From Verrucomicrobiota bacterium (GTDB lineage Bacteria > Verrucomicrobiota > Verrucomicrobiia > Limisphaerales > JACDHS01), in NCBI GenBank assembly GCA_013820875.1, contig JACDHS010000020.1, positions 1 through 47,109 on the forward strand: a DNA stretch of 47,109 nt. Direction: 5' to 3'. The notes under the pieces were generated by a model. It was not told the origin of the DNA, ran no database searches, and saw only the letters and a list, made by a program, of their open reading frames with translations. Position numbers and translations under genes: made by a program. Below, piece after piece: positions 3,862 through 47,109 of this stretch. Within the stretch, counting starts at the first letter, position 1, and every line of letters starts with the position of its first letter.

Positions 3862-3883
3862 TCTAAAGAGGTTTAGACCGGGA

Positions 3884-12518: not shown

Positions 12519-12549
12519 CAGTCTAAATCCGGCAGTTGGAATTCAAGGA

Positions 12550-12818: not shown

Positions 12819-12838
12819 CCTTTTTAAATCTCAGTGCT

Positions 12839-20641: not shown

Positions 20642-20643
20642 AA

Positions 20644-21747: not shown

Positions 21748-21751
21748 GGCT

Positions 21752-22735: not shown

Positions 22736-22858
22736 GAGTCCCAGGGAAGTTATATCCAAAACCGAACACCACAGTTAGTGGAAAGTTGTCGAATTGTTAT
22801 AATTGACCGATCGTTTTCGGCGGGTTCCCTGAAGTGGGTGGAACGGGCTACCAGCCGG

Positions 22859-23315: not shown

Positions 23316-23337
23316 ACTGAGAGGGGATCTCCGACTT

Positions 23338-23699: not shown

Positions 23700-24200
23700 G
23701 GTTTAATGTTTCTTTGCACTGACGAATTTAGATTTTTGAACACAAGTTTTCACGAATGGGCACAAAATAACGCCAGAAATCCGCAATTGTTTTAGGTGTC
23801 AACACCTTCAAGCCCAGCAACTTACGCCCGTTCAGAGCACCTGTTCCCGGTGTGTTTTTGAGTTTTTGCAATTTCGGTGCGGCGCTGCATCCTTGCTTCC
23901 ATCAACGACTTACAACGGGTCAAGTCCCTCTTTTTGCCGGGTTTCTTCTTTTCATCGCCTCTTTTTTTGGGGGTAAAAACAAACTTTTTTTTGCAACCAA
24001 ACCCAATAGGGACGGGCCTCTGGAGGGCGGAGGAAATTTGTGGACAAATTTTCCCCTTATGTGACCGGTGGCGTTTATGTGAAAAAATACCCGATTCGAT
24101 TATCGAGTCATTAACCGTCCGGTAAAACGGACAAAAACGGAGTGGAAATGGGCCGCTAATGTGTCCTTTTCCGCTGCGTCGCAGAAACGGAATAAAACCT
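23700..24200. other. Gene-free stretch upstream of the second FN3 gene
   Basis: No supported gene. It holds A/T-rich DNA with homopolymer runs and one small hairpin (GTCCG at 24117-24121 with CGGAC at 24128-24132). Short ORFs here lack homology and one is antisense to the FN3 gene. Confidence 0.55.
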
Positions 24201-28541: not shown

Positions 28542-31500
28542 CTATGGCGAACGGAGCCGGTAAAACCGCAGAGTGTGGTTCGTCCCCCCAGAATCAGTGA
28601 AGTGGAATTGGCCGGGTGCAATTTCAATGGCATTGCCCAGAACCGACCACTCGCTGATTGGCAGCGCGGTGTCTGTTGTGCCAAGGATGGTAAACGTCGA
28701 ACCGGGCACGCTGGAGAATTCGAAGCTCAATTGTCCACTCACCACCACGGGACTCACCGGATCAATATTCAGCGGCGGCAGAGTTGTAGTCGCGAAACTG
28801 GCATCTCCGCCGAAAACCACTCCTTGTTCAGAAATCGTTCCCACCCGGAAGTGGTAAAGTGTCCCCGGAATTAAACCCAACACCGGATGGCTGACAGGTA
28901 TCGCGGAGTTGGTTGCCACCAGAGAGTTGGTCGTTGTGAAATTGCCGTAGCTGGTGCTCGTCCCGTATTCGAAATACCAATCGAGCGGCTTGCCGTTTGG
29001 ATTAATGGAGGCGTTCAACTGCGCCGTGTTGGGCTTGATGTTGGATGCCGGCAACGTGACAAGCTCCGACTCGCCCTGCAACGTCAAGCGAGCGGTCCAC
29101 GAAACAATCACGCAGCCATAAGCATCCTGGATCCGACAACTATATTCGGTGTTATCCAATGCGGGAGAAAGGTTCGTCAGCGTCAACGTTGCGGTAGTTG
29201 CGCCGAGATAAACGGTGTTGTTGGTGAGATCGATGAAAACTTCATTGCTCTTCCATTGCCACTGGTAGGTCACGTTGACCGGGTTGACCACAACCGAGAA
29301 CTCGACTGAAGGGGCTCCGTTCGCAGTGACATCGACCGGCTGCGCGAGGATGAAGAGACCGGAACCGAGTTGCGCTTCGTATGCGCCCATGTCCACTGCG
29401 CCACCCACGACGCGAGCGTTCCGGGCGAGATCGAGCGAACCGGCCACTTCCGAATCGAGCCCGCTGTCGATCGCCGGTGAGCAGGAGGCGACGCGGTAGT
29501 CTCCAGCTATTGTGGGCGCACTGCTTGCATTGACGGCCGCAAGGAACAGCGGATCAGCGCTGATGCCGTTGCCATCTACCCAGGTTTGCTCCCCGGGGTG
29601 GTAACCCTGGACGATGGAATTAGTGAACCGGACGGCATCCCACGTTTCAATTTGCTCATCGTAAAGCGAATTCGCAGGTGACTGATTGCCCCACACGATC
29701 GAGTTGATCAGGGTCACTGGTCCATCAGCGGAAATCGCCGCTGCCGCTCGCAGGGACCTGTTTCCGGCAATCGTGCAGTTGCGCAGGACGAGCTCTCCAT
29801 AGGAGTAAATTGCCGACCCATCCCTGTCAGCCTGATTACCACTGAACAGTGAGTTGGCGATATGGAGAGTCGAACTGGAACCCGAAACAGCTCCCCCGGA
29901 GGAAAAGGGCCAAGTGGTGCGGTTCGCCCGGAAAAGGCAGCGGTTGATGGTAACCGTGCCACCGCTTGATGAAATAGCGCCTCCGCCGTATTTTGCGGCG
30001 TTTGTGTCGAACGTGCAGTCCTCAAAGGCAGGCGAACCGCCGCCTCGGTTTTCCACCGCCCCGGAGTCAACATTTCCCCCGTGCTGAATATTTTTGAACA
30101 CACAGTTGGCGAACACCGGAGAAGCCGGCGCTTCCTCCCCATCGATTAAAATGCCCTTCGTGCCGTCGCTCCCGTCGATAATGAAACCGTCCAGACGAGC
30201 TGATGAGGTGATTGGGGAATCGTAGGGTTGGATTACGATTGTATAATAATTTTTTCTGGAAAGTTTTGTGGGATGAGCGATCCAGTCCCGCTGACTGCGG
30301 TTGGTTTCAGTGCCGGCAAAGCCGCCGTAAATGGCTACCCCATTCCTTAATTCGAAAGATTCACTTGCGGAATAGGTTCCCTGGGCAACCCAGATTTCCG
30401 AGCTGCAGGTCGCCTCGATGGCCGCGCGTAAATCATTGTAGGCGGTCGCCCAGGAAGCGCCGTCTCCGCCCGGGGCTGCACCCGCGTGAACATACGTTTG
30501 GGCAGGAGGCACTGCCAATTGCGCCGCTTGCGAGACAGCCGAGCATCCGAAACCGGAAGTAATGCTGACACGGAATTGCGCACCATTGAGGTCGGGTGTT
30601 GGCGATTGAATGTCGAGGCGCGCTGTGTTCACGCCTGAAAAGACGGCGCTGTTTGATAGCGTCAGGAATGTGTTGCTTCCTGGGCTCCACATCTCCCATT
30701 GGTAAGTCAAAGGAGCGGGGTTTGAAGCGGCCACTTCGAAGAAGTTCGCTTCAGCCGCACAAAAAGTGACGTTCGCCGGCTGCGATGTGATCTGGACCGG
30801 ATCGCCACCCAACTCCTGGAGTTCGTAGGCGCCAAGATCAGGCCCATTGAACTGACGCGGGCGGCCCGCCAGGTCCGTGGTGATGCCGGCAAGCACGCCA
30901 GCGTCGGCATCGTCAAGCAGGGCTGAGCACTTCTGGAGGGTGTAATTCCCGTCGAGCGTTGGGGCGACTGTCGCCAGAACAGGAGCAGTGAAATCCGGGT
31001 CCGCTCCCTGATTGGCGTCATAACCGAAGTTGGACAACCCCTGGATCGCGGTATGATTGACGCTGTAGCTGCCAGAGAAGGATAATTGCGCTGCTTCGTT
31101 TTCGAGGGTTCCGGCCCGGTTGCCCCATAGGATGCTATTGCGAACCGTCCAGTTGCCGCTGAACGCCCAGAGTCCCGCGCCCGGCGACGCGACAGAGGCA
31201 TTGCCCACAATGGTGCAGTTTACCATGGAACCGCTGCCCCCGACCGAGCCCACGCCAGCACCGGATTGAGCGGTGTTACCCGAAACCAGACAGTTTGTCA
31301 GTGCCACGGAGCTGTTGGCGAAATTGAGACCGCCACCAAAATTTGTCGCCGTGTTTCCCGAGAAGCGGCAGTTCAGGAATGCTGCGCCGACAGCATCCGT
31401 AACGCTCGCGCCACCCTTGCCGTTGTTCCGAAGGAACGAAGATCGTTCGATCAAAGGGCCACCCCCGGTGATCCCGAGGCCAAAGCCATGATTCGACTGG

Positions 31501-34500
31501 ACAACGCAGCTTCGAATGGTGGGGCTGGCGTGGAAGACCTGGATGCCGCCGGTTCGCGCCTCCCGGACGGTTACCCCGTCAAGGAGGGTTGACCGGCCTA
31601 CCGGGTTGGCCAACCCATCGATCAGGACCACATAATGGCTGTTGTCGGACGGGTCACCCGGCGCGCCAATGTCGCCGCTGAGAATCACCGTGTTGGTCTG
31701 CGGATTTCGTTGGTTCAAATCGGTTTCATTGCCGCTGAACCCGCCATACACCCGGACGCCATTCCGAATATCGAAGCTCTCGAGGGGATCCGTCCCGGTT
31801 GTCGGCAGGTAGGTTCCCGCGGCCACCCAGATTTCAGGCCGGCAGAGGCTTGCCGCATCCAGCGCGGTGCTGAGGGAATTGTAAGCAGTGGCCCAGTTTT
31901 CACCGTCGCCATCGGGCGGTGCAGTTGCATTGACGAAAATCACCCGCGGATTCTGAACGGTGAGAGCGGCTGCGTCGGTGTAGTAGAACCCAGCCCCTCG
32001 CTGGACCCGGCTCCGGTAGAGGAAACCATTTAACGACCCGTCGATGTTTTTCACCGTGAGCGTGCTGGCCGCGGAAGAGGCGGAAATGCTGTAGCGGCTG
32101 TCGGCGGTAACCGGCTGATAACTGCCGCCTGGAGCCTTGGATTCCCATGTGTATCCACTCCAGGTTCCGGAAGCTCCCGTCACTGAAAAAGCCACGGTAT
32201 CCCCGTCGCAGGCGACGGCAGACAGGGGCTGGGACAAGATGCGCACGGGCAAGGGATCGAGAGTCAAGGTCTCGTAGGCGCCGAGGTCGACAGTGGTGGT
32301 CACACGAATGCGGGGATTGTTGTCGAGGTCGGTGGCGATTCCCGCGATGAATGCGTCGTTACCCACGCTGATGGCGGGGGAGAAGGGTTCCTGCAGGCGG
32401 AAGTTGCCGCCTGCAGCATCGATGAACAACGGGTCATACGGCACGTTGTTGTTGCCGCCGTAAGTGGCGAGACCTTGCAGGAGGGAATAGTTGAGCGAAA
32501 CCGTTGCGCCCGGTTTTGCCAATTGCGCCAGCTCCATGTTGCCATTCGCCTCGTAGGTGTCGGAGTTCCCCCAAAGGATGCTGTTGAGCACGCTGGCCGA
32601 AGTGCCGCTGATAAATAACCCGCTGCCACGGCTGTAGGCGGTGTTCGCGGCCACCGTGCAGTTCACGAGAGTCAACGGCGCATAGCTGGAAATGCCTCCT
32701 CCCACGAATGCGGAGCCATGCGCGACCAGGCAGTTGGTCATCGTCACCCCGAGAGCGGTGGGCATTGCAAAGATGGCCGCGCCATCGGTTCCGGCGCTGT
32801 TGCCGACGAAAACGGAATGTCGCGCCGTGAGGCGGCCGCCTTCATTGAGGAAAATGGCCCCGCCACCGTAACCCGCCGAGTTCGTCTCAAACCGACTCCG
32901 ATCCACAACCACGCTCGAATCCCAGACACTCAATGCGCCACCCTGATTTTCAGTCGTGTTGCGGGCGAAGAGAGAACGCGCAATAGAAACCGCACTGTTG
33001 TTGCGAATGTCCATCGCCCCGAAACCATTCCCTTCGAAAACACAATCTTCAAATGTCGGGCTGGAATCCGCGGTGACGAACACGGCAAACAAACGGTTGC
33101 CCGCGAAGCGACAGTTGCGAATGGTGGGGCTGGCCTGGTTGATGACCATGCCGGCCGTGACGCCAGTGCCGGTAATGGTGAACCCGTCCAGCACGGCCGA
33201 TGAACTGATTGGCGCGAGGAATCCGCTATTGACGAGGTAGGCGGTGGTGTTGTTTCCGCTGAGCACGGTGGGATTATTCGTCCAGTTGCGCTGTGACCGT
33301 TGCGTCTCGTTTCCACTGAACCCGCCATAGATTTCCAGGCCATCTTTCATCGCCACTGCGCCGGAGGCAGGCGGCAGATAAGTTCCACTGGCCACCCAGA
33401 TTTCGGAACAGCCATTCGCGGCCTGTAGCGCCCCGCTGAGGTTGGTGAACGCGTTCGCCCAGCTCGCGCCAGAGTTGTCGCCGGCAGCATCCCGCTTCAC
33501 GAAGAGAACCCCGGGAATCGAGACCGTGAGCGTCGCTGCCGGGCTGATGTAGGGTTCTGCGAATTCACTGGAACTGGCGAAGAAAGCGTATTGCCATCCG
33601 TTCATTGCAGGAGAAGCAGCGGAGATTATGAGCGTGGAAGAATTCGCGGTGGCTGCGACGGTATGCACACCGTCGCCAATCGGCGCCCCGCCCCAGCCAG
33701 TGCCGGTGTTCACAAGCCAGTGATAGCTGATGGCCGGATTGGCAGCCCCGACCACGACCATTGTGAACGCGGCAGGTTCTCCCGAGCAAGCCGATGTTGA
33801 CTGGGGTAGCGCTGAAAATTGCAAGGGCGCAATGGCGCCGATGGACTGCTCATAAGCGCCGCGATCTACCGCGCCGTCTGCGACGCGCGGAAGGCCATCA
33901 AGATCCAGTCCATCGTTCACCCCTCCAGAAATGGTACCGGAATTTACGGCCGGGCTGAACGGACTCAGCCGGAAGTTGCGGGCCGGGGCATCGATGAAAA
34001 GCGGGTTAACGCCTTGATTGCCGTTGCCCGGGAATGTGCCGAGTCCTTCGATGACGGAATTCGTGATCGCCGGGATGGCAGTCGCGCTGAACGTCACCTG
34101 CGCTGGCTCCAGTCCTGGCAGTTTATTGCCCTGTCGATTTCCCCAGAGAATGGAATTGACCACCGTCATCTGCTCATAGCTTTGAATCGCACCACCGGAC
34201 CATGCGGCCTCGTTCTCCACGAGGGTGCAGTGCCTGAGGGAAAGGCCGGCGGAAAGGACCGCGATGGCGCCGGCGCGATACTCGGAGCGATTGCCTGCAA
34301 AGAGCGAATCGGAAACCGTTCCGCTGCTGCCCGAGAACGCGAGTGCGCCTCCCCAGTCTGCCGCGGAATTGTCAACGAAATAACAGCGGGCGATCGCCAG
34401 ATGGCCGGTTCCTTCGTAAAAGATAGCTCCGCCGAATTTATCGCTGCGATTGTCCTCGAATGTGCATCCAATCACCTCGGGGTTCCCATCCACGAAAAGA

Positions 34501-37500
34501 AGGGCACCCCCCCGTTCGCGGGAGCGGTTGCTTTTGAACGTGGAGGCCTCAATGCGGGGAGAGGAGCGATGGCTGTAAATAGCTCCCCCAAAGCTATTGG
34601 TATGATAGCGGAACACGCAGTTCTCGATCGATGGGTTCGAAGAATCCGCGTTTGCGATCGCCACCGCGTTGTTTTCGAACGTGCAGTTGCGAATCGTCGG
34701 ACTGGCCAGATAGTTTGCAATCGCGGTCGCCTTCGAGCCGGACACGGTGAATCCGTCCAGCACCGCCAGCCGGTCCACCAATTGTAAAGTGCCTCGATTT
34801 TCGAAGATCGGCTGGAGGCCGGTTGCCGAGAGCCGGCTGATGTTGTTGGTCCAGTCTCGTTCGCTGCGCAAAATTTCGACGCCGGTGAATCCGCCATAGA
34901 TTCGCATCGCTGATTGCAGGCGCAGCGTCACCGGGGAACCGGTCGAGTTTGTTTGCGCGTAAGTCCCTGCCGCCACCCAAATCTCTGAGCAGGGATTCCA
35001 GAGCGCAACCGCTTCCTGCAGGGTCGAGAGCGCCGTGCCCCACGAAGAACCGGCACCGGATGCCACAACGTTGCCGTTCACATAAATGACGGACGGGCTT
35101 GCAACCTGCAGCGAGAACTCGCGAGAGGTGTAACCCAATTCCGGGATGACGAAGCGGAACTGGTCTCCATCCATGGCCGTCGATGCCTGCGAAATTACCA
35201 GCGAATTGGTGCTTCCGTTGGTGACAATCATGTAATCGGGACCGGTGCCAATGGGACCGTAGCCGTCCGTTCCGAACTTCTGCCACTGGACCGCCGCAGA
35301 AAAGGTCTCGGCAAAGACCAGATCAAACCGGGCCGGGTTTCCGGCGCACACATTCCGGGACTCCGGCTGGGCGAGAAAACGCACCACTCCGTCGGAAGGT
35401 GCTCCACGCTCCAGCGCGCCGCGATCCAGTCCCAATCCCATCCTGCGAGGCTGCCCGGCAAAATCAAAAGCGCCCGCCAGTTGTTCGGAATCAAAGGCGG
35501 AGTCGATCGCGGGCGAAAAGTTACCGAGGCTGAAATCGTTTACCGCAGGGTTGGCAAAGAGTGGATCAGCTGCGGAACTGCCGATTCCTGGGAAGGAGGC
35601 GTAACCCTCGATGGTTGTCCAACTTGCCAGGACAGTGCCGCGGTATTGTTCCCACTGCATCTGTTCCATCGATTTTGCACTCGAGTTCACACGGTTCCCC
35701 CAGACGATCGAGTTCCGCACCTGGTTTGTTGAGGATTGCGCATAGACTCCCGCCCCTTCGATAGAGGCTGAGTTCTGCGCGACGGTGCAGTGGACCAGTT
35801 CCAATGTTCCGCCATATTGCGCGAACGCTCCTCCTCGACCCTGCGACCGGTTGTTCACGGCAACAGAGTTGCGGACGCTCAGTGTGGAGGAATCGACGAA
35901 AATGGCGCCTCCCTCGGCCGTCGCGAGATTGTTTTCAAACCAGCATTGGTCGACCACGAGCGTGCTGCCTTGAAGTGCGGCGATAGCCCCGCCCTGACGA
36001 GCCGAGTTAGTTCTGAAGGTCGATTTGTGTATGAATGCGGTACTGCCGAAAGTGGAAACGGGCCCGTATAGTTGCTCGGCTCGGCCGTTTTCCTCGAAGA
36101 GACAACCTTCCAGGGTGACACTTCCATTGAACGTGGTCACCGCGCGACCAGCGTTCCTCCGGAACACGCAATCAATCAGGCGCGGATGCCCTCTATCGTT
36201 CACCACGGCGGCGACACCATTTCCCATGAGCGTGCAATTGCGGATGGTGGGGGATGCGTCAATGTTCCAAATGGCAGGGGCGGAACTGCCGTTGGAGTCG
36301 AGAACGAATCCATCGAGTATGGCCGTGCGATCGGCTGGGGTGAGTGAACCGCGGGTGCGGAATATTCCGGACCCCACGGAAACGAGCCGCGAAACATTGT
36401 TGCTCCAGTTCCGCTGGTCCCGCTCGGTTTCGTTACCGGCAAAACCACCGTAAACGGCCACGGTTGAGCGCAATTTAAGGGTTTCTTCGAGAGCGATTTC
36501 ATAATCGCCGCCTGTCACCCAAAGTTCCGAGCAACCGGGCACCAACTCGAGCGCATGATGCATATTTGTAAACGCATTGGCCCATGAGGTGCCGTCGCCT
36601 GGGCCGTTGGTTGCCGAGGCATTCACATACCAGACTTGCGCGGAGCCAACCTGCAAGCTGACTGGAACCGAAACAAACGCCGTTCCATCGACCCGGAAGC
36701 GGACCTGATAATTCGTCTGCGGTTGAGGGGAGACGATGGTGAGAACCGAGTCATTGGTGCCGACCGCGACCTGGTAATCGGAACCTACCACGACATCGGC
36801 AAAACCGCTGCCCGTGTTCACCTGCCAAAGATAGCTCGAGCCAGTTGGCTCACCGCTCACGCTGAACAAAGCCGGACTTGCAGCGCACGCCGAGGCTGAT
36901 TGCGGCATGGAGTAAATGGTTACCGGAGTCGCTGCTGTCTGGGATTCATGGGCGCCGATGTCAACCATGCCCCCAACGATGCGCGGGTTGCCCGCCACGT
37001 CGCTTGTCATCGCCATGGAGACGTAGTTGCTGTTGCCGGCATTGATGGCGGGCGAATGCGGGGAAAGTCTTACGTCGCCCGCAGATGCATTGAGGAAGAG
37101 AGGGTCCACTCCGAGGTTCCCATTGCCGGTATAGATGGAAAGCCCCTGGATGCATGAATTGGAAACGGCAAAAGTGCGGTCGAAGGGCCCGAGTTGCGAA
37201 TCCTCCAGAGTGTCGTAAACCGGGTCGGAACGGTTGTTCCAAAGCAGAGAGTTTAAAACGCGGATGGCGCCACTGCCGGAGAGGAACAACCCGCCGGAGC
37301 GAGTTGAAGCGTGATTCCCGGAGATCGTGCAGTTCACCAGATCGACCGCAGTTCCGAAGTGCGAAATGGCACCGCCACGCGAGGCGTGGTTGCCGGTCAG
37401 CACAAGTTGTTCGAGCACCGGCGCGCCGCTCATCGTCGCAATGCCGCCGCCATCATAGGTCGCCACGTTGTTCTCGAAACGGCTGCGGCGAATTGCGGGA

Positions 37501-40500
37501 GAAGATTCCACGTTGTAAATCGCCGCACCCCATGGCGCGGTATTGGCGAGAAAAACACAGTTCGAAATCGTGGCATGGCTTTCCCACAAATTGGCAATCG
37601 CTCCACCGCCGACGAGCGTGTTCTGGTTGTTCACGAACAGGGAGTCGGAAACATCCGGCGATGAACCATTGCGATTGACCAATGCACCGGACAGGTTGTT
37701 TGTGAATACGCAGCCGCTGATGGTTGGCGATGACGCGACCTCGTTGAAGATGCCCGCGCCAGTTGAATTTTGGATTGTGCAATTCCGAATGGCCGGGCTG
37801 GCGCGAAAATTGAAAATACCATCGCCGTTCACCGGCTGAATGACGAAGCCATCGAGCAAAGAAGTCGCATCGATCGCTGCGTTCCAATCAATTCCGCGAT
37901 TCACAAACACCGCCTGCGCATCGGGATGTCCTGTCAAAATGGATTTGTAAAACGCCGGATTGCGCGCGGAGCGAACGAGTTCATTGCCCTGAAAGCCGCC
38001 GTAAATTTCCAACCCGGGTTTCAATGAGAAATAGAACGAGCCGTCCGCAGCTTGAGTCGCCGGATACGTTCCTTGCGCGACCCAGATTTCCGAGCACTGG
38101 TCGGCGATGGCGAGTGCCGATTGCAAATTCGTGAATGCGGCTACCCATGAAGTCCCGTTGTTCCCGCCGGTCGCAGCCGCGTTTACGTAAATCACGGTTG
38201 GTTGTGAAACGCTCAACGTCACAGGCAATGAAGCGTAATTAGCCGCCGCCACAAAAATCCGATAGGCGTGGCCGTTCATTGCGATGCTGATATTTGAGAC
38301 GGTCAACGTGCTGACGCCATTGCTGACGAGGACGTAATGCGCTCCGTCATTTGGGACGGCAGAAAAGGCGCCTCCCGTGCTGACCTGCCATTGCAGGACA
38401 TTTGTTTCCCCCGCCGCGAGAGCAGCGAAGAACGTGGCGCTGTCGCCCGCGCAATTTACCTGCGCTTGCGGCGCAGAAAGAAGCCACACCACCATCCCAC
38501 CCGCCGACTGCCGCTCGTATGCGCCCAGATCCACGATGCTGTCGAAAATGCGGGCGTCCCCCGCGAGATCAGACGCAAGCGCAGAAGCTGCCGCATTGTT
38601 TCCAGCGTTGACCACTGGTGAAGCGGAACCGAGTTGAAAATTGAGCGCACCGGGATTGACGAACAATGGGTCATTCCTGGAGTTGTTGTTGCCTGCATAC
38701 GTGCTCAATCCGTCAATGCAGCTATTCGTGATGTGCAACGCCGAGGCCGGCACGCCTGAACTCCGTTCGATCTGTTGCAACTCGCGATTTGGGATGAACG
38801 TGCGGTCCTGCACGGAGTTGTTCCAGAAAATCGTATTCACGCTGCTGACTTCGCCGCCGAAAACAAACAGCGCGCCGCCGCGGGCGCCCCGATTGTTTGC
38901 AATGGTGCAGTTGATCAACCGTAATTCACCAAGGCTCTGCAAAAAGACCGCCCCGAGATGGTCGGACTGATTTTCCGCGAAGAGGCAGTTCTCAAACTGG
39001 ACGATGCCCGTGCCCAAATTGGCCACCGGCCCACCGCTGCTGCCGCGATTGCCGAGGAACACGCTCCGCGTAATCAACGGCTGCGACTCGCCGCTGATGT
39101 AGAGGGCGCTGCCCGAGTATCCGTGGTTCGATTCAAAGCGGCATCGATCAATAATCGGGCTGGAAGAACTGAGGTAGATGGCGCCATTGGTGTTGCCGGT
39201 GAACAGGCAGTCCATGAATCGCGGCGAGGACCCGGTGCTGTGAACGGCGGTCATCCCGGCATTACGAAAAACGCAATCCGTAAGCGTTGGACTGGAAAAA
39301 GTGACGTCGAGGGCCGTCCCGGCCGGCCCATCAAAGATGCAATTGCGAATGGTCGGGCTGGCCTGCCGCAGCCGGATGAGGGTTACCGGGTCCGCACTAC
39401 GTAAGGTGAACCCATCGAGAATGGAACCTTCATCAATGACGGCCAGATCGCCCCGGGCCTCGAACAAGGACTCGTTCGGACGCGCGACAAGCACTGCCGG
39501 ATAGTTCGTCCAATTGCGTTGGCTGCGCAACGTTTCCACCCCGGCAAAACCACCGTAAACCGGCACCCGCGAACGGAATTCGAAATAATTTGCGCCAAGC
39601 AAAGGGCGAGCGGAGTAGGTGCCTTGCGCCACCCAGATTTCATTGCAACTGGTCGCGATTTCCAGCGCGTCCTGAAGATTGGTAAAAGCATTCGCCCACG
39701 AACTGCCGTTCTTCGTTCCAGCCGCACCATCGCGAACATAAAGAATACTCGGCGGATTAACGGTCAGTAATGCTGCGGGCGTGACATAATCGCTGTCGCG
39801 AATTGAAATGCGATAGGATGTCTGGCTCAGCGCAAGCGTCGGCGCGGCGATGGTCAGCGTGGAATTGCTGCTCGAAAACGAAATTGTGTAAGTGGCATCG
39901 TTGGAAATCGCGACGAACCCGCTGCCGGAATTGGCCTGCCAGTCGTAAATGAGCGTGGCATTGTCCGGGCCGGAAACTCTGAAGTTGACCGGACCTGCCC
40001 CGACACAAGTGGTCACTGATTGCGGTAAAGTGAAAATTTGGACCGCTGTCGCAGGCGTGCCTTGGAATTCGTAAGGACCAACATCAATGCTGTTTCCGAC
40101 GACGCGCGGTTGATCATTCAAATCATTGGTGACGCCCGCCGGAAAACTCGCGTTGCCCGCGTCAATCGCCGGGGAATGCGCGCTCAACCGGTAATTGTTT
40201 GTAGACGCACCGGCAAAGAGCGGGTCAAACGCCGTGTTGCCGTTTGCATGCGGCAGCGGCAGCGCCTGCACAATGGAATTGGAAATCACGAACAAAGCCG
40301 CCTCACCCTCGTTGAATAATTGCGCCCGGTATTGGCTGGAATTATAACGCCCACCGTCGCTGTTGCTCCAAATAATGCAGTTGTTGAGAATATAATTTCC
40401 CTGGCGCACATACAACCCGCCACCGGAGGTTGCGGCGTAGTTGTCGGCCAGGATGCAATTCTGGAGCAAGAAGGTGGACCGATATCCGCTGATGGCCCCG

Positions 40501-43500
40501 CCGAGGTGTGAGCCGTAATTGCGCGCGAAAAGCGAGTTCACCAGCACATTCGTCGAGTCCTGACTGTAAAAAGCTCCCGTGCCGGAAACATTGTCCGTGA
40601 ACCGGCAATTCACGAATGTCGGAGCGGCTCGCCTGCTGTGAACCGCCGCCCCGTGACTGCCATTGTTGTTGATGAAATCGCAGTTGCTTATCGTGGGACT
40701 TGCGTCGGAGACATCGAAGGCGCTGTACTGCGCATCCCGCAAAATAAATCCGTCAAGAATCGCGGTTTGGTCGGATTGAAAACCCCTTTGATTTCCGCTC
40801 ACACTAAACAAAAACAGGCTGTTATCAGCAGTGCTGCTCGGGTTGCCAAGATTGCCGCTGATGATGGTGGGGTTGGCGCGCGGGTTGCGCTGGCTTAGAT
40901 TCGTTTCCGTCCCGGTAAACCCGCCATAGATCGCCACATTCGAACGCAGGCGCAGGTAACTGTTCGTGTTCCCGTCGGCAGTCGGGAAATACGTTCCCGC
41001 TGCCACCCAGACCTGGGCGCAGACAAGCTCTGAATATCGATCCATAATCACATCCTGCGCCTCGTGCAGGGTGCGATAGGCGTTGGCCCAATCGAGCCCT
41101 GTTCCCATTCCGGTGGCCGCCGCGTTGACGTAAAACCGGCTGGGGTTCACGAACAAATGCGCGCTGCCGGAAGTGAACGCGAAATTGCCGGTGGCGCGAA
41201 CGCGATAGCGCTGACCGTTCAGTTCGATACCGGGATAGAGGATGGTCAGATTGGTGGAAGTGGTTCCGGTATAGAGGGCGCTTTCCGTGACCGGCATAAA
41301 ACCCGCGCCGTCATTCCGGTTCAACTCCCATTGGAAGCTCAGGCTCAAATTGTTCGTGCCGATGTAGGCTAGTTGAATGATCGGTCCATCCGCAGTGCAA
41401 TCACGCGTCAGTTGCAAATCGGCGCTGATGATCACGGGCAAATCCTGAAACTCGTAGGCGCCGAGGTCCATGGCTAAGTTCGCAGTCCGGGGAAGTCCAT
41501 CCAGATCGTATTTAGGATCAATCTGATTGGCGGGGCGTTTTCCGGCATCGATGGCCGGCGAGAAGGGGCGCAAGCGAAAGTTGTCGCGTGCGGCATCCAC
41601 AAACTGCGGGTCGAAATCGAGATTACCTGGGTCGGCGTCGAAACGAGCGGGGGGAGAGACGCCTTCCCAGATGCTGTCGCTCACCCAATACAAGCTTCGC
41701 GCTGCATTTGCGTAATGAAACTGTTGTCGCTCCAGGCTGGCGGTGCTGTTCCGGACACGGTTATTCCAAAAAATACAGTCTTTTGCGGAGAAAAATTGAG
41801 GGTCCTGAAAGTTGGCGAAGTAAACGCCGCCGCCGCCGCGCGGCGTTGCGGTGTTCAGGAGAACAGTGTTCTGGACGATGGTGCAATTGTAGAGGGTTAG
41901 GGCAGCTTCCGAGACGTGAATGGCACCACCATTGCCGTAGGGGCTGAGCTTGCCGGCCACGTTGTTGGCAAAAAGGGAATTCCAGAACGTCCCAAAGGCA
42001 GACTCAAGCCAGACCGCGCCTCCGGATTCCCCGGCACTGTTGTTCTCAAAGCGGCAATTCCAAGCCCAAAGGCGTGAGCGATAAAACAAGGCTCCACCCG
42101 ACCCCTCCGAGTGGTTATTGATGAACACACAATTGGTAAGGACGGGGCCGTAAACGGTTCCGCTGGAGCGGAGCGCCGCACCGCTCCCTTGGCTGATGTT
42201 GTCGATAAAACTGCAGTTACGCAATTCAAACCCGGACCGGGTTGCTACAATTGCCGCATCGGTCACGCCGGGTCTTAGAGGGGAGCGCGCTTTGGTGAAA
42301 GTTAAGCCATCAATGAAGGTCACACGGCGTCCTTCCGAGATGTCATTCTGCGGGCCGTCAACGTCCTCGGCGGAGAGAAGAGTAAAACTGTTGTCCCCGT
42401 CATAGGATGGGGTTCCGATGTCGCCGCTGATGATGGTCTCGTACTTGCTGAAGTCGCGCTGGGCGAAATTGGTCGCCCCCGCGCTCACGCTGAACCCGCC
42501 ATAGATCTTGCAGCCATTTCTTAGCACAAACCGGTTAACTGGATTGTTACCTGGTGGCTTGTAGGTGCCAGACTCGACGAAAACAACCACCCCTGCGTTG
42601 AGCGCTGATTGTAGATTGGTCATGGCGTTCTTCCAGTTCACACCGCTGCCGTCGCTTCCGGGGGCGCTAGTTCGCACATAAAGGGTGGTCACGGCATTTG
42701 TGTTCTCTATGCAACCCATGTCGATTTCTGAACCACTGATGCGGGGTTTGCCATGGAAATCCCAATTCACGGGTTGGCTGGTGCGCAGGCGCAGTTGGCG
42801 GCCCGAGTTGAGCGCCACTGAGGGGATTTCAAAGCTCAACTGTTGCAGGGTAGAACCGTAGATCTCCTCGTCCAAATAGAGACCGGGGTTCAAATCCGTA
42901 TTCCCGTTCTTGAGGAGGTTGGGGCGAACGCCTTGGCCGCCGTTGTAAAATCTGTAGAACCAGAGGAGTCCCCGTGCATCCGCCCAATTCTCCAACTTAA
43001 TTTCTTCTTGAATCGTTTCGTAGGTTGTCGCCCAAGAAGCGAAATAGGCAGTGCCGATCGGAATGGAGCGAAGGCTTTGCACGCAACTATGGCTGATTTC
43101 GCACGTCGCCGCCGTTTCGTAAAAGTACATTCCGAGATTGTCCAGGGTCCGAACGTCGTTCGTGTAGCCTCTCTGAACAGCCAGGGCTCTTACCGACGCA
43201 ACCGTTGCGGTATAGACATCAGCGCCGCCTCCTGAGCTGGTCCCGTGGTTGTTGTCCCAGAGAATGGAGTTGGAAATATCCACTGCCGCTCCAGTATGGT
43301 TGCCGATGGCATAACCCTCAGTGGACTTGGAACGATTTTTCCAAAAGGTGCAGTTGACGATGCTCGCGACTGTCTTGGCGGAATTGGCTATCGCGCTGTC
43401 GCCAGAGCCCGCTTGATTTTCAATAAAGGCACAATTCAGAATGGATGCAGTGTTGTATCCCCCCTGATAGACTGCTCCCCCTTCGGCCGCGGCCAGATTC

Positions 43501-45359
43501 TCTTCAAATCCACAGCGTTCAACTTGCAGGTTTTCGAAGATGGCGAGAATTGCACCTCCGTTGTCCGCTCTGTTCCGGATAAACTTACAATCGATAATAT
43601 TCTGTTCTGCGGAAGCATTATAGCGCAATCGCTCCCACCCTTTCTTGTCGAGAACTTCCTGTGTGTATGGGGGTCGCTTCGGGAAATCATAGAAAGTATC
43701 GAAAATTAAATCTGCAAGCTGCATTCCCCATCCCATGGGCGTGGCATACTTTTGGAAATTCGTGTAGAATAAATTCCAATTTTTAACATGGATATTATTC
43801 GGGCTAGTCCCAAACATCTTGGCGAGTTCAAACCCCAGGTTTACAGCGTCAAGACCTACGGAAAGGACTGCATAGCCCCCCGAAATCTTCGAGAAGGAGT
43901 TCACGCCTGAAGTGGCGGCCCAGCCCCGCCTGATGCTAAATTCGGCAAAAGTGTCAGCCTGGTCCAAGTAGGTATAACCTGTTCTTCCAAAAAACCCCGC
44001 CACTGTAGCCACATCTTTCCATGGCCCTACCCCTGCCCCTTCCATTTCTTCCATCTCAACTCTCACCGCGCTCATCGCACCGCTCATCTTAAACATTGCC
44101 AATTCGGACGTCAGTTCCTGATGAAACGCGATCCGGCTTTTGCCAGTCCTGGATTTAAAAAGAGCATCGGTAGTCAGCGTCGGAAGTATCGTGTTTGTTG
44201 AAGGCCATGATTGGAGGTGAATCCCTCCGCCAGAACGGGCCCCGTTTCCGTAAAACGTGCCGCCGGCCATCTGCATCAACTGGTTCTGCCCCCAGTAACC
44301 CCCTCCTTCCAGGGTTGCCTGATTGGCTTTAAAATCGACGTTGAAGGCGATTACGATGGTGTTGTCGGCTGCAATGCCGCCGCCATAAGCGGACGCGGCA
44401 TTGCCAATAATGGTGCATTGGTTGAGTATCATCCCGATTTTATCACCATTGCCACTGATGAACACGCCGCCTCCGGCTACCATCCTACTGACCGGGGTTA
44501 TGGGCTTGCCCGTGAGTAGATTTGCGGTATCCGTTTGATCGGGGTAGCTCATTCCTTCAATCATCAGCGCGAGGTCCACCACGTTGGAGGCGATCTCCGA
44601 CGTGGCCGTTTGCGGGGGCACTCCATTAGCGAAACCACCCGCAATAATGACCTTGTCGAGCCTTGCATGATCCAGGTTGGTTGCAGTCACCACGTTGTAA
44701 CAGTTGTCGAGAAATCCCATGTCATTCCAATCGGGGGCAAGGTCTGCGATAATGAGATGCCTTGTGAATGTCTCACCAAACACTAAGGATGAGCGGTCCG
44801 CGATGTTTGCTTTCAAGATGGTCGTATCCCGTCCTTCGATTCGCAGGACGATTTCCGTAGAGTTTTCACGTTCGAGCACGCCATTGAATATCTGGCCATC
44901 CTTGGTTTCAATGCGGGTATCGAGGCCGAGACTGTGCCGTATTGAGTTTGTCTGCGGCACGCCAATGTCACCGCTCAACACTGTCCAGTTCTTGTTAAAC
45001 AACCGTTGTTTTTCAGTCGTTTCCGTGCCGGCGAAACTACCCAAAATCGCCAGATTGCTCTTGAGCACAAAAGAGGCGTTCCGATTCGTGCCGGTGGTCG
45101 GCTTGTAGGTGCCCGTGGCGACCCAAATTTGCACCGGATTACTCGCCGTGGGATTGGCGTTGCTGATGGCTACAGCAAGGTCGGTGTAGGCATTGGCCCA
45201 CGAAGTCCCATTGCGCAGCGAAGAGAGAGGCGCGTTCTGGTTAACAAAGAGAATGTTTGCCGCGTTAGCTTCCGGCATCCACAGGCCCAGCAAAAGAATC
45301 GATACCAGAAGCGGGAGAATAAAACATTTTCGGGCGAAAGGGCTCGGAAAAGGGCTCAT
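28542..45359 (-). CDS. Giant secreted beta-helix/Ig-repeat protein, 5605 residues
   Basis: A single uninterrupted 16.8-kb frame. A signal peptide (about 10-33, LLVSILLLGLWMPEANA) is followed by ten repeats of a ~520-residue module starting near residues 34, 890, 1405, 1869, 2386, 2906, 3422, 3949, 4470 and 4953. Each module begins with a YVN/FVN strand and a GxSWANAFTNLQ segment, then IWVAxGTY, VYGGFxGxE, many right-handed parallel beta-helix rungs (SPTIRNC, GGAI, NSILWGN), then DPLF, SPAIDAGN and VDxGAYE (choice-of-anchor Q-like), and ends with an Ig-like domain (SQP...FSV...YxWQ). The end is an extra Ig domain (~5328-5425), an FN3-like region (~5430-5523) and a terminal domain with FYRLRSP, a C-terminus common in exported proteins of this phylum. 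The first module has two unique inserts (~148-190 and ~396-590). It is probably a long surface or matrix fibre; no catalytic site was seen. No Shine-Dalgarno precedes the ATG. Confidence 0.93.
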   Translation of the reverse strand: MSPFPSPFARKCFILPLLVSILLLGLWMPEANAANILFVNQNAPLSSLRNGTSWANAYTDLAVAISNANPTASNPVQIWVATGTYKPTTGTNRNASFVLKSNLAILGSFAGTETTEKQRLFNKNWTVLSGDIGVPQTNSIRHSLGLDTRIETKDGQIFNGVLERENSTEIVLRIEGRDTTILKANIADRSSLVFGETFTRHLIIADLAPDWNDMGFLDNCYNVVTATNLDHARLDKVIIAGGFANGVPPQTATSEIASNVVDLALMIEGMSYPDQTDTANLLTGKPITPVSRMVAGGGVFISGNGDKIGMILNQCTIIGNAASAYGGGIAADNTIVIAFNVDFKANQATLEGGGYWGQNQLMQMAGGTFYGNGARSGGGIHLQSWPSTNTILPTLTTDALFKSRTGKSRIAFHQELTSELAMFKMSGAMSAVRVEMEEMEGAGVGPWKDVATVAGFFGRTGYTYLDQADTFAEFSIRRGWAATSGVNSFSKISGGYAVLSVGLDAVNLGFELAKMFGTSPNNIHVKNWNLFYTNFQKYATPMGWGMQLADLIFDTFYDFPKRPPYTQEVLDKKGWERLRYNASAEQNIIDCKFIRNRADNGGAILAIFENLQVERCGFEENLAAAEGGAVYQGGYNTASILNCAFIENQAGSGDSAIANSAKTVASIVNCTFWKNRSKSTEGYAIGNHTGAAVDISNSILWDNNHGTSSGGGADVYTATVASVRALAVQRGYTNDVRTLDNLGMYFYETAATCEISHSCVQSLRSIPIGTAYFASWATTYETIQEEIKLENWADARGLLWFYRFYNGGQGVRPNLLKNGNTDLNPGLYLDEEIYGSTLQQLSFEIPSVALNSGRQLRLRTSQPVNWDFHGKPRISGSEIDMGCIENTNAVTTLYVRTSAPGSDGSGVNWKNAMTNLQSALNAGVVVFVESGTYKPPGNNPVNRFVLRNGCKIYGGFSVSAGATNFAQRDFSKYETIISGDIGTPSYDGDNSFTLLSAEDVDGPQNDISEGRRVTFIDGLTFTKARSPLRPGVTDAAIVATRSGFELRNCSFIDNISQGSGAALRSSGTVYGPVLTNCVFINNHSEGSGGALFYRSRLWAWNCRFENNSAGESGGAVWLESAFGTFWNSLFANNVAGKLSPYGNGGAIHVSEAALTLYNCTIVQNTVLLNTATPRGGGGVYFANFQDPQFFSAKDCIFWNNRVRNSTASLERQQFHYANAARSLYWVSDSIWEGVSPPARFDADPGNLDFDPQFVDAARDNFRLRPFSPAIDAGKRPANQIDPKYDLDGLPRTANLAMDLGAYEFQDLPVIISADLQLTRDCTADGPIIQLAYIGTNNLSLSFQWELNRNDGAGFMPVTESALYTGTTSTNLTILYPGIELNGQRYRVRATGNFAFTSGSAHLFVNPSRFYVNAAATGMGTGLDWANAYRTLHEAQDVIMDRYSELVCAQVWVAAGTYFPTADGNTNSYLRLRSNVAIYGGFTGTETNLSQRNPRANPTIISGNLGNPSSTADNSLFLFSVSGNQRGFQSDQTAILDGFILRDAQYSAFDVSDASPTISNCDFINNNGSHGAAVHSRRAAPTFVNCRFTDNVSGTGAFYSQDSTNVLVNSLFARNYGSHLGGAISGYRSTFLLQNCILADNYAATSGGGLYVRQGNYILNNCIIWSNSDGGRYNSSQYRAQLFNEGEAALFVISNSIVQALPLPHANGNTAFDPLFAGASTNNYRLSAHSPAIDAGNASFPAGVTNDLNDQPRVVGNSIDVGPYEFQGTPATAVQIFTLPQSVTTCVGAGPVNFRVSGPDNATLIYDWQANSGSGFVAISNDATYTISFSSSNSTLTIAAPTLALSQTSYRISIRDSDYVTPAALLTVNPPSILYVRDGAAGTKNGSSWANAFTNLQDALEIATSCNEIWVAQGTYSARPLLGANYFEFRSRVPVYGGFAGVETLRSQRNWTNYPAVLVARPNESLFEARGDLAVIDEGSILDGFTLRSADPVTLIRLRQASPTIRNCIFDGPAGTALDVTFSSPTLTDCVFRNAGMTAVHSTGSSPRFMDCLFTGNTNGAIYLSSSSPIIDRCRFESNHGYSGSALYISGESQPLITRSVFLGNRGSSGGPVANLGTGIVQFENCLFAENQSDHLGAVFLQSLGELRLINCTIANNRGARGGALFVFGGEVSSVNTIFWNNSVQDRTFIPNRELQQIERSSGVPASALHITNSCIDGLSTYAGNNNSRNDPLFVNPGALNFQLGSASPVVNAGNNAAASALASDLAGDARIFDSIVDLGAYERQSAGGMVVWLLSAPQAQVNCAGDSATFFAALAAGETNVLQWQVSTGGAFSAVPNDGAHYVLVSNGVSTLTVSNISIAMNGHAYRIFVAAANYASLPVTLSVSQPTVIYVNAAATGGNNGTSWVAAFTNLQSALAIADQCSEIWVAQGTYPATQAADGSFYFSLKPGLEIYGGFQGNELVRSARNPAFYKSILTGHPDAQAVFVNRGIDWNAAIDATSLLDGFVIQPVNGDGIFNFRASPAIRNCTIQNSTGAGIFNEVASSPTISGCVFTNNLSGALVNRNGSSPDVSDSLFVNNQNTLVGGGAIANLWESHATISNCVFLANTAPWGAAIYNVESSPAIRRSRFENNVATYDGGGIATMSGAPVLEQLVLTGNHASRGGAISHFGTAVDLVNCTISGNHASTRSGGLFLSGSGAIRVLNSLLWNNRSDPVYDTLEDSQLGPFDRTFAVSNSCIQGLSIYTGNGNLGVDPLFLNASAGDVRLSPHSPAINAGNSNYVSMAMTSDVAGNPRIVGGMVDIGAHESQTAATPVTIYSMPQSASACAASPALFSVSGEPTGSSYLWQVNTGSGFADVVVGSDYQVAVGTNDSVLTIVSPQPQTNYQVRFRVDGTAFVSVPVSLQVGSAQVWYVNASATNGPGDGTSWANAFTNMHHALELVPGCSELWVTGGDYEIALEETLKLRSTVAVYGGFAGNETERDQRNWSNNVSRLVSVGSGIFRTRGSLTPADRTAILDGFVLDSNGSSAPAIWNIDASPTIRNCTLMGNGVAAVVNDRGHPRLIDCVFRRNAGRAVTTFNGSVTLEGCLFEENGRAEQLYGPVSTFGSTAFIHKSTFRTNSARQGGAIAALQGSTLVVDQCWFENNLATAEGGAIFVDSSTLSVRNSVAVNNRSQGRGGAFAQYGGTLELVHCTVAQNSASIEGAGVYAQSSTNQVRNSIVWGNRVNSSAKSMEQMQWEQYRGTVLASWTTIEGYASFPGIGSSAADPLFANPAVNDFSLGNFSPAIDSAFDSEQLAGAFDFAGQPRRMGLGLDRGALERGAPSDGVVRFLAQPESRNVCAGNPARFDLVFAETFSAAVQWQKFGTDGYGPIGTGPDYMIVTNGSTNSLVISQASTAMDGDQFRFVIPELGYTSREFSLQVASPSVIYVNGNVVASGAGSSWGTALSTLQEAVALWNPCSEIWVAAGTYAQTNSTGSPVTLRLQSAMRIYGGFTGVEILRSERDWTNNISRLSATGLQPIFENRGTLQLVDRLAVLDGFTVSGSKATAIANYLASPTIRNCTFENNAVAIANADSSNPSIENCVFRYHTNSFGGAIYSHRSSPRIEASTFKSNRSRERGGALLFVDGNPEVIGCTFEDNRSDKFGGAIFYEGTGHLAIARCYFVDNSAADWGGALAFSGSSGTVSDSLFAGNRSEYRAGAIAVLSAGLSLRHCTLVENEAAWSGGAIQSYEQMTVVNSILWGNRQGNKLPGLEPAQVTFSATAIPAITNSVIEGLGTFPGNGNQGVNPLFIDAPARNFRLSPFSPAVNSGTISGGVNDGLDLDGLPRVADGAVDRGAYEQSIGAIAPLQFSALPQSTSACSGEPAAFTMVVVGAANPAISYHWLVNTGTGWGGAPIGDGVHTVAATANSSTLIISAASPAMNGWQYAFFASSSEFAEPYISPAATLTVSIPGVLFVKRDAAGDNSGASWANAFTNLSGALQAANGCSEIWVASGTYLPPASGAVAMKDGLEIYGGFSGNETQRSQRNWTNNPTVLSGNNTTAYLVNSGFLAPISSSAVLDGFTITGTGVTAGMVINQASPTIRNCRFAGNRLFAVFVTADSSPTFEDCVFEGNGFGAMDIRNNSAVSIARSLFARNTTENQGGALSVWDSSVVVDRSRFETNSAGYGGGAIFLNEGGRLTARHSVFVGNSAGTDGAAIFAMPTALGVTMTNCLVAHGSAFVGGGISSYAPLTLVNCTVAANTAYSRGSGLFISGTSASVLNSILWGNSDTYEANGNMELAQLAKPGATVSLNYSLLQGLATYGGNNNVPYDPLFIDAAGGNFRLQEPFSPAISVGNDAFIAGIATDLDNNPRIRVTTTVDLGAYETLTLDPLPVRILSQPLSAVACDGDTVAFSVTGASGTWSGYTWESKAPGGSYQPVTADSRYSISASSAASTLTVKNIDGSLNGFLYRSRVQRGAGFYYTDAAALTVQNPRVIFVNATAPPDGDGENWATAYNSLSTALDAASLCRPEIWVAAGTYLPTTGTDPLESFDIRNGVRVYGGFSGNETDLNQRNPQTNTVILSGDIGAPGDPSDNSHYVVLIDGLANPVGRSTLLDGVTVREARTGGIQVFHASPTIRSCVVQSNHGFGLGITGGGPLIERSSFLRNNGKGGASVTDAVGAAFLNCRFSGNTATNFGGGLNFANSSVALTNCLVSGNTAQSGAGVGSVGGSGSMVNCTIVGNASVASPGAGLWAFSGNWTVRNSILWGNRAGTLENEAAQLSFSGSYSVNHTAIQGLSNFGYDANQGADPDFTAPVLATVAPTLDGNYTLQKCSALLDDADAGVLAGITTDLAGRPRQFNGPDLGAYELQELGGDPVQITSQPANVTFCAAEANFFEVAASNPAPLTYQWEMWSPGSNTFLTLSNSAVFSGVNTARLDIQSPTPDLNGAQFRVSITSGFGCSAVSQAAQLAVPPAQTYVHAGAAPGGDGASWATAYNDLRAAIEATCSSEIWVAQGTYSASESFELRNGVAIYGGFAGTETNRSQRDWIAHPTKLSRKNYYTIVIQPYDSPITSSARLDGFIIDGSDGTKGILIDGEEAPASPVFANCVFKNIQHGGNVDSGAVENRGGGSPAFEDCTFDTNAAKYGGGAISSSGGTVTINRCLFRANRTTWPFSSGGAVSGSSSTLHIANSLFSGNQADRDGSAIYSYGELVLRNCTIAGNRSLRAAAAISADGPVTLINSIVWGNQSPANSLYDEQIETWDAVRFTNSIVQGYHPGEQTWVDGNGISADPLFLAAVNASSAPTIAGDYRVASCSPAIDSGLDSEVAGSLDLARNARVVGGAVDMGAYEAQLGSGLFILAQPVDVTANGAPSVEFSVVVNPVNVTYQWQWKSNEVFIDLTNNTVYLGATTATLTLTNLSPALDNTEYSCRIQDAYGCVIVSWTARLTLQGESELVTLPASNIKPNTAQLNASINPNGKPLDWYFEYGTSTSYGNFTTTNSLVATNSAIPVSHPVLGLIPGTLYHFRVGTISEQGVVFGGDASFATTTLPPLNIDPVSPVVVSGQLSFEFSSVPGSTFTILGTTDTALPISEWSVLGNAIEIAPGQFHFTDSGGTNHTLRFYRLRSP

Positions 45360-45495
45360 ATTGAAGTGGGGGTCAAAAAATTACCATGAGCTAGACATTA
45401 CCTGCTTCTGTCAACATTGAACTTTTCCATAATCTCGTCTTCAACCAGTTCAAAACATTGCAGAGCCATTTCGTTTTGTGGGGGGCCTCGCCTAG

Positions 45496-46006
45496 TCATG
45501 CCAACTCCGTAGGTGGAGCGAAGTCTCCTACAATGCTCCTCAGATGTTCGTGAATCTGTTTCCCCGGGAGGGACAGGTCCAAGGTTGTGGCTCGGATGCG
45601 GTGACCGTGGGTGACGAAGTCGACGTTGAAATCTACGTTCGTGCGCGGGTAGAGGAGAATGCCTTCTGCGTTCTCCCACCCGGGCTGATACGATTTCTGG
45701 CGAAGGTAAGTGAAGAGCTGGAACAGGTTTCCAGGAGGAAGCCTCAGTTTTCTATAGTTTCCGGCTTTCAGAGCTGAGGCAGTAGAACTTTGTATCAAGG
45801 ATGATAGATCGGTCCGGACCCTGGAGACAAACGTCTGTTTCCATCCGCGGCACGTATTCACTCGCGTGGTCGTTATACTGGGACATTGCCCAGTCAATCA
45901 CAGGAGCACCGATCTTCCAGGCAGGCAGTTCGCGACGGTAGAAGTTGAGCACGAATTTTTCGAACAACCCCGGCAATCCTTTCCGAGTAAAATCGCGAAA
46001 TGTCGA
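45496..46006 (-). pseudogene. mcrC: mcrC remnant (5-methylcytosine restriction component), truncated and frameshifted
   Basis: Read from the minus strand, one frame (46006 down to about 45782) shows DFTRKGLPGLFEKFVLNFYR, METDVCL and ILDTKFY, the conserved C-terminal McrC region. After TKFY, one extra base near 45781 shifts the frame. The next frame continues SALKAGNYRKL, GNLFQLFTYLRQK, EGILLYP and DLSLPGKQIHEHL, as in intact McrC. An in-frame stop at 46007-46009 removes the N-terminal half, and no mcrB is in the window. The gene is therefore dead in two ways. McrC partners McrB in restriction of modified DNA. Confidence 0.85.
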
Positions 46007-46009
46007 TTA

Positions 46010-46091
46010 CCCACCTTACGGAAAGTTGCGCGGCTTTGTAGACGCAAACAAGAACGGCGTCGATGACCGGCTCGAAACATTAGCGAAGTAG
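46010..46091 (+). pseudogene. C-terminal fragment of an unidentified, Asp/Asn-rich protein
   Basis: The plus strand ends a frame with GFVDANKNGVDDRLE before a TAG at 46089-46091, an EF-hand or dockerin-like DxNxNGxDD pattern. It has no start of its own; upstream it overlaps the mcrC remnant in antisense, so the fragment was probably joined here by a rearrangement near 46007. Confidence 0.4.
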
Positions 46092-46096
46092 GATTG

Positions 46097-46395
46097 ATGG
46101 CCCGCGACAAACAACTGGAGAACGTCAGTCTCAATTCTGTTATTGAGAAGCGACGTCTCGATCAGGCGTTGAACGCCAAGGAGTTTGCAATCCTCGCGGG
46201 CATTTCGTATTCCACGGCTCGCGGTTGGTTTAAGTTACCGGATTCCCTGCGTTCTCGGGTATCGTGTTCTGGAGCGACTTTGTTACTTGGCGAGGGCTCC
46301 GGAATAGACAGAAAAAGCAGCCGATAAGGCGGACTCACCCGATGAAGGCAAAGCCTCTCCGCATTCAACCAGAGGATTACCACCGCGAGCACTGA
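46097..46395 (+). pseudogene. Excisionase-like helix-turn-helix gene with a single-base frameshift
   Basis: The ATG follows AGGA. The first frame reads AKEFAILAGISYSTARGWF, a helix-turn-helix DNA-binding segment of the excisionase/AlpA type, then runs to FKLP at 46228-46239. The expected continuation GFPAFSGIVFWSDFVTWRGL lies in the next frame from 46240 and ends with a stop at 46393-46395. One base is missing in CCGG (46238-46241). In its current frame the product is cut to about 77 residues with a nonsense tail. An intact version would be about 99 residues. Such genes belong to integrative elements or phages, but no integrase is seen here. Confidence 0.65.
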
Positions 46396-46522
46396 GAATT
46401 CTTCGAGAAGCCAAGTAGATCGAACGCGTCATCTTCCATCCGAAATCCCTAAGGATCGCTTTGGTAAATACCTAAATCATTCAAAGCAATCCACTCGAAG
46501 AGGATATGCAAGCGGGTTCCAA

Positions 46523-47109
46523 TCACCAAGTTCTTGGAGGCTTTATAGGTGTGGCCGATAGCGACAGAGGTAGGCGGACGGAACTGGTGTCCTTGACAGA
46601 TTGAATGTCGTTAGGCAGCCTGCTGTCCACTTCCACTGCCGCCTGCGCATTGTAACTCTGCTCAAAATGCTGACCACTGCCCGCTTTCATGATTCGGCTT
46701 TCCGGATCGGTAAAGTTATATTGATCTTTGGGTTGAGGATCGGGTGTCGGCCCCTGTGGCGGCTTTCCACCACTTTTCTCTCCGCGCTCTTCTTTGGCCG
46801 CTCGTTCGGCCAGCTTTTGCTCATGTTCCGCCAGTTGCGCGATGTAGCGCGCGTGGGCGCGAGCTTCAATCTCAGTGCGGGCGTGTGCCAGGGCAGCTTT
46901 GCGTTCCGCTCGCCGGGTGATTTCTTCGGGAATGCTCAATCCATCCTGTAAAGGAGTGCTGTCTGCCTGTTCGGCTTTAGCGATCAATTCCTTCACTTCG
47001 TTGTCGAGCCGTTCGATGACTTCCCCAGCCCGTTGGTAGCTCACCGCACTGTGTTTACTGGCATTGGCCAATACTTTGGTGCCGTCTGTCGCCACCGTGA
47101 TCTGACCGA
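46523..47109 (-). pseudogene. IS1182-type transposase, 3' fragment running off the window edge
   Basis: The frame shows DGTKVLANASKHSAVSY, a long charged Ala/Glu-rich helical insert, then FTDPESRIMKAG and SYNAQAAVEVDSRL, the signature region of IS1182-family DDE transposases. After DSRL it diverges into unrelated residues and stops at 46523, so the catalytic C-terminal half is missing. The N-terminus lies beyond 47109 and cannot be judged. No terminal inverted repeat was seen. It is a decayed insertion-sequence copy. Confidence 0.85.

Follow-up and report, generated by a model that had tools for sequence, protein, structure and literature searches.

The last 75 aa of a giant verrucomicrobial protein matched the C-termini of other proteins encoded in the same genome, where this C-terminal domain (CTD) capped about 65 other proteins. 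The gene itself was a well-built new member of an already known protein kind. The CTD was a new part of the giant protein, absent from Pfam and NCBIfam, and it looked like an undescribed tag for surface sorting or anchoring. It was also the part most worth following. A domain common to about 65 proteins per genome provides a list of the likely surface proteome and a handle on the export route. Verrucomicrobiota are important polymer degraders, and to our knowledge the surface display of proteins in this phylum is poorly known.

The giant gene and its modules

The gene was located in a genome of 5.7 Mb (239 contigs, 99% complete), on a stretch of 47,109 nucleotides that was analysed as a whole and is called the window below. 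We found that positions 28542-45359 were filled by one uninterrupted open reading frame of exactly 5605 aa, with its ATG at 45359. Thus, the single intact 16.8-kb gene of the original prediction was confirmed, with the correction that it lay on the minus strand, as do all the gene parts described below; the plus strand across the same interval had many stops. The stop-to-stop frame exceeded the reading frame by only 7 codons, and there were 163 and 153 stops in the two other frames of the gene's strand. The GC content at codon positions 1, 2 and 3 was 0.55, 0.51 and 0.66, a pattern as in a coding frame. The protein started with a signal peptide (MSPFPSPFARKCFILPLLVSILLLGLWMPEANA, aa 1-33, 45261-45359) that passed our signal-peptide rule, in agreement with the secretion that had been predicted. 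It was followed by ten beta-helix modules, an FN3-like domain and a CTD of 65-75 aa. The architecture proposed originally was therefore right about the ten modules and made no mention of the FN3-like domain and the conserved CTD.

The modules started at aa 36, 892, 1408, 1872, 2389, 2909, 3424, 3951, 4473 and 4954. After the first module of 856 aa the steps were 464-527 aa (1.39-1.58 kb), which reproduced the predicted period of about 1.4-1.6 kb. Modules 2-10 each consisted of a right-handed beta-helix (PF13229) with a choice-of-anchor Q motif (NF041518, matched by pieces) and then an Ig domain, giving nine Ig domains in total. They were recognized by family matches at 41139-42686 (module 2), 39747-41138 (module 3), 38196-39746 (module 4), 36636-38195 (module 5), 35091-36635 (module 6), 33510-35090 (module 7), 30504-31946 (module 9) and 29070-30503 (module 10), and module 8 (31947-33509) was supported by its predicted structure. 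In five of the six pieces into which the protein was divided, NF041518 scored 39.7-72.1 bits (cut-off 25), and it had no match in the first 1000 aa. The FN3-like domain (aa ~5431-5528, 28776-29069) reached 22.1 bits with PF00041, below the cut-off of 25. The CTD (aa 5531-5605, 28545-28769), delimited by its matches to other C-termini, ended in RFYRLRSP directly before the stop codon. As a separate observation, three contigs of a family neighbour (C188, C551 and C596 of genome G001) contained reading frames of 1902-3023 codons with many repeats similar to this FN3-like domain.

Module 1 (aa 36-891, 42687-45254) was a divergent beta-helix without an Ig domain, as established by module comparison. 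An insert of about 180 aa (aa ~405-580, 43620-44147) stood in place of the Ig domain. It was delimited by alignment with a relative from a closed genome of the same class (G019) and, judging from genome sampling, was private to this kind of module. Accordingly, the predicted composition of every module, a beta-helix plus an Ig domain, was valid for modules 2-10 and failed for module 1. No Pfam family matched module 1 at 0.01, and the region specific to it had no match by sequence among solved structures. Additionally, about 50 aa of module 1 (aa ~140-195, 44775-44942) were missing from the G019 relative, where the alignment had a gap; by eye this segment resembled a part of PVC haem-binding-type proteins.

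A profile built from modules 2-10 scored each of them above 490 bits in one or two pieces, as it had to by construction, and it still matched module 1, which had been left out, with pieces of 92 and 60 bits. The repeat was therefore far beyond chance. Identity was 28-39% among modules 2-10 and 20-26% between these and module 1, and third codon positions were near saturation between modules (about 27-41%), so the modules had clearly diverged, as had been claimed. Exact DNA matches between modules reached 20 bp at most, which made misassembly of short reads by collapse or expansion of modules unlikely. A non-functional or mis-assembled repeat array was a very improbable account of the gene. In its favour, the contig ended 1.75 kb upstream of the start codon, amid apparently broken mobile-element genes. 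Against it were the absence of any exact inter-module repeat longer than 20 bp, the open 16.8-kb frame with its strong third-position bias, and the existence of a relative with the same layout in the closed genome G019.

Predicted fold and length

The AlphaFold model of a module had a pLDDT of 82.8. The Foldseek list for this model was filled by Ig domains, and the beta-helix emerged in the VIA-align comparisons, where the model was aligned to the pectate lyase Pel9A (Z 26.5, rmsd 2.8, 290 aligned residues) and to a phage tailspike (Z 26.8, rmsd 2.7, 287 aligned residues). Ig domains matched the end part of the model with Z of about 14. For the tail composed of the Ig, FN3 and CTD domains, a single-sequence structure prediction gave a pLDDT of 31.

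The fold match to Pel9A, together with a weak sequence match to BcAlyPL6 (7dmk, E 6e-4), raised the question of whether the protein might be an array of polysaccharide lyase-like enzymes, in which each beta-helix would carry a catalytic groove and the rod would degrade a polymer. We considered this unlikely, since the family that the modules matched was the general Beta_helix one, with no match to any lyase family, and the beta-helix fold is common to many non-enzymes.

If each module has about 14 coils of 0.48 nm and an Ig domain of about 4 nm, its length would be about 10 nm and the whole rod would measure about 100 nm. The hundreds of nanometres suggested originally would then be too long.

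Age of the layout

When the module profile was run against genomes of the phylum, an open frame of 6497 codons was identified in G019, containing a 6488-aa reading frame. Its product was aligned to the giant protein over aa 31-1961 (28% identity) and 3878-5555 (30% identity). Similar to the giant protein, it had a divergent module 1 with the insert (30% identity over about 400 columns), modules composed of a beta-helix and an Ig domain, and a CTD at the end. Unlike the giant protein, it had about 7 module starts, after which FG-GAP, cadherin-like and Big_9 repeats preceded the CTD. The genes flanking it were different from those around the giant gene. Among 387 sampled genomes, the module-1-specific region was matched strongly only in the giant's own genome and in G019.

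In a tree of 86 modules, built by a quick method with SH-aLRT supports only, the first modules of the two proteins were sisters (support 100). Modules 2 and 3 grouped with G019 module 2 (support 86), module 10 grouped with G019 module 6 and a further verrucomicrobial module (support 83), and modules 6 and 7 formed a pair (support 91), these supports of 83-91 being moderate. The groupings suggested that module 1 split off first and that the end modules kept counterparts at the ends of the G019 relative. Thus, a multi-module ancestor would predate the two families to which the giant's genome and G019 belong. Transfer of the gene may be another account of the shared layout. Since the G019 relative shared module 1, the kind of module and the CTD, we considered the layout to be old, and the claim that the length was old and maintained was borne out by the presence, in a closed genome, of a 6488-aa protein that shares both terminal parts.

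The module in other lineages

The module of the giant protein was an ordinary one, namely a choice-of-anchor Q beta-helix found across many phyla. Using a profile from a five-module alignment, we identified at least 568 module relatives in a named genome collection, distributed over Bacteroidota, Planctomycetota, Chloroflexota, Hydrogenedentota and others. Pedobacter proteins from three loci (L242, L230 and L212; open-ended reading frames of 3828-4964 aa) were similar to the giant protein in having seven to nine diverged beta-helix modules. In one of these frames, of at least 4964 aa, nine module starts were matched with a loose threshold and eight with a strict one, and module order was kept between Pedobacter species. 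They were different from the giant protein in that they belonged to Bacteroidota, to genomes with SprA; no CTD was found in them and their modules formed a separate clade (support 100).

Among 50 complete beta-helix relatives, the tails were Por_Secre_tail (21), dockerin (4), CHU_C (3), SLH (1), RTX (1) and others. It followed that elsewhere the same module ended in an anchor fitting the local machinery, and that the giant protein had the CTD at this place. In comparison to the NF041518 and PF13229 proteins, the giant protein was alike in that pieces of modules 2-10 exceeded both cut-offs and surface anchors varied among the relatives. It was distinguished by its ten modules, nine Ig domains, private module 1 and a tail outside Pfam and NCBIfam. 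The rod can thus be considered as a case in which different phyla employ one module family and exchange its tail, apparently to suit the machinery of each lineage. Bacterial proteins of more than 5000 aa are enriched in several PVC phyla (PMC11573180; for Omnitrophota, PMC10066038). The giant protein shared this size class and was much smaller than the largest members; its parts and its tail could be named.

The C-terminal domain

A CTD profile was built from 13 C-termini of the own genome and produced 72 matches there at E<=0.001 and 84 at E<=1. The domain was located within 12 aa of the stop in 63 of the 70 own-genome proteins examined (64 of 71 with the giant protein), and the remaining 7 of these 71 matches were internal or were reading past the end of the fetched stretch. 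Signal-peptide-like starts were found in 55 of the 70 CTD proteins and in 136 of 346 background genes, mostly taken from other genomes (odds ratio 5.7). A looser signal-peptide rule had passed 232 of 347 background genes, which was too high, and the stricter rule was therefore used. The cargo of the CTD comprised 70 Pfam families in 53 proteins, including Ig, GHL10, reprolysin-like peptidases, propellers, PKD and PATR.

Across the phylum, 65 of 145 genomes had the CTD, some with 40 or more copies, and in 28 of the 29 best relatives of this sample it was at the extreme C-terminus. Among 40 genomes from other loci with the beta-helix module, the only CTD-rich one was a Verrucomicrobia genome (L213, 54 matches); the other 39, one of them from Opitutales, had 0 or 1 match. 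This distribution suggested that the CTD was a phylum-specific tail domain, and it was also the basis on which the giant's genome was assigned to Verrucomicrobiota. A literature search returned no named C-terminal sorting domain of Verrucomicrobiota, which is no proof that none has been described.

When 48 CTD members were compared with Pfam and NCBIfam, there was no convincing match. F5_F8_type_C_2 was matched weakly by 4 of the 48 members (best E 0.0075), and over a local stretch of 38 positions the profile weakly resembled discoidin domains that bind chitosan (4zy9; E 5e-4). Because of this similarity the CTD may bind sugar rather than sort. In that case it would be a small carbohydrate- or matrix-binding domain, and its proteins would exit through a general route, the CTD then attaching them to a substrate or to their own polysaccharide. 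Such a role was possible and would fit both the discoidin-type domains of glucanase and chitosanase that were matched and the glycoside-hydrolase-like part of the cargo. Nevertheless, we regarded it as rather doubtful, since the similarity covered about half of the CTD, the near-strict C-terminal position (about 90% in the own genome) was unusual for binding modules, and the cargo was highly varied.

Candidate export routes

The window contained no recognizable export genes. The original statement that the export route was not evident was therefore correct for the window; the genome, however, offered the shared CTD and a canonical GspD. With neighbours, this GspD scored 485.7 bits against a curated cut-off of 351. 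Both features expected of a type II substrate, a signal peptide on the protein and a canonical GspD in the genome, were present; they are necessary and not sufficient. GspD exceeded the curated cut-off in 38 of the 145 phylum genomes. At least five CTDs were found in 21 of the 37 listed GspD-positive genomes and in 8 of the 108 others, an association whose p-value of 2e-9 ignores shared ancestry. On the other hand, 4 of the 15 CTD-rich families had no listed GspD match over the cut-off. Moreover, in two genomes of the giant's own class, G141 (24 CTDs) and G120 (19 CTDs), the best secretin match was below the GspD cut-off, so the link of the CTD to type II secretion was imperfect.

Rhombotarget A ends in a transmembrane GlyGly-CTERM tail, whereas the CTD had no transmembrane stretch. 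The two proteins were alike in having a beta-helix with detectable sequence similarity, and rhombotarget A is among the type II substrates listed for Acinetobacter (PMC5861075).

Several other routes were considered and rejected. The type IX system (T9SS) was dismissed as a partner, as far as SprA indicates: SprA was absent from the giant's genome and from all 145 phylum genomes (positive control, five of five Bacteroidota), and neither the CTD nor 47 relatives matched Por_Secre_tail, CHU_C or the type C tail. The T9SS sorting domains Por_Secre_tail and CHU_C were thus unlike the CTD in sequence and in their partner; they would be like it, if the CTD sorts, in being small C-terminal domains of many unrelated secreted proteins. 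A type Va autotransporter was discarded because the last 605 aa contained no beta-barrel family, and an RTX or type I adhesin because the protein had a signal peptide and no RTX match. The protein also did not look like a PEP-CTERM or exosortase substrate, since the last 75 aa had neither an NCBIfam match nor a hydrophobic helix; one of the 47 CTD relatives had a weak PEP-CTERM match (0.054). In G019, the protein just downstream of the 6488-aa relative (positions 928-1605 of locus L324) had, by eye, a PEP-CTERM-like tail. This lineage therefore probably uses more than one C-terminal tag.

Proposed route to the surface

The scheme that we propose has, in our judgement, an even chance of being right as a whole: a rod that is exported by Sec, folds, crosses the outer membrane in a type II-like manner and is retained at the surface by its CTD. 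The signal peptide would send the protein through Sec. In the periplasm its ten modules would fold as right-handed beta-helices, with the Ig domains as hinges, as the predicted and matched fold suggests. The outer membrane would then be crossed, most likely by the type II secretion system of the genome, and the C-terminal CTD would hold the protein at the surface. Module 1 with its insert would be the distal tip and, judging by how conserved it is and where it lies, the part most likely to bind specifically, and the rest of the protein would serve as a spacer of about 100 nm.

The CTD would act as a common sorting or anchoring tag for its set of proteins in the genome and would occupy the position taken by T9SS tails, dockerin and SLH in the beta-helix relatives of other phyla. 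We put forward only tentatively the more specific proposal that this tag belongs to an undescribed surface-display pathway of Verrucomicrobiota, acting with type II secretion on its outer-membrane side, and we consider it possible rather than probable. If it is true, the pathway would serve tens of proteins per genome, giant rods among them, and the CTD would be the counterpart of the T9SS tail.

Neighbouring genes and repeats

The other genes of the window included a MoxR/DUF58/BatA/VWA cluster, a propeller histidine kinase, a helicase, and a serine/threonine kinase with a 3-keto-disaccharide hydrolase domain. On the minus strand, positions 10381-22759 contained genes for a MoxR ATPase, DUF58, BatA/VWA, DUF4159, cytochrome c554-like and thioredoxin-like proteins. 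Positions 45480-47109, which lie upstream of the giant gene, had broken frames that by eye looked like a McrC-like gene and a transposase; a Pfam scan of 46523-47107 gave no match.

Two repeat arrays were also observed. At 23337-23695 a 42-bp unit was repeated in tandem in 8.5 copies (94% matches) with a frame open on both strands, and the library matches of this array (Myb, Tertiapin) looked like repeat artefacts. Units of 42 and 83 bp (about 74% matches) were located at 9750-10017, between the propeller histidine kinase and a thioredoxin-like gene. Finally, positions 200-1108 and 24159-25112, about 23 kb apart, encoded paralogous proteins with 36% identity over 302 aa, the former of which had an fn3 match.
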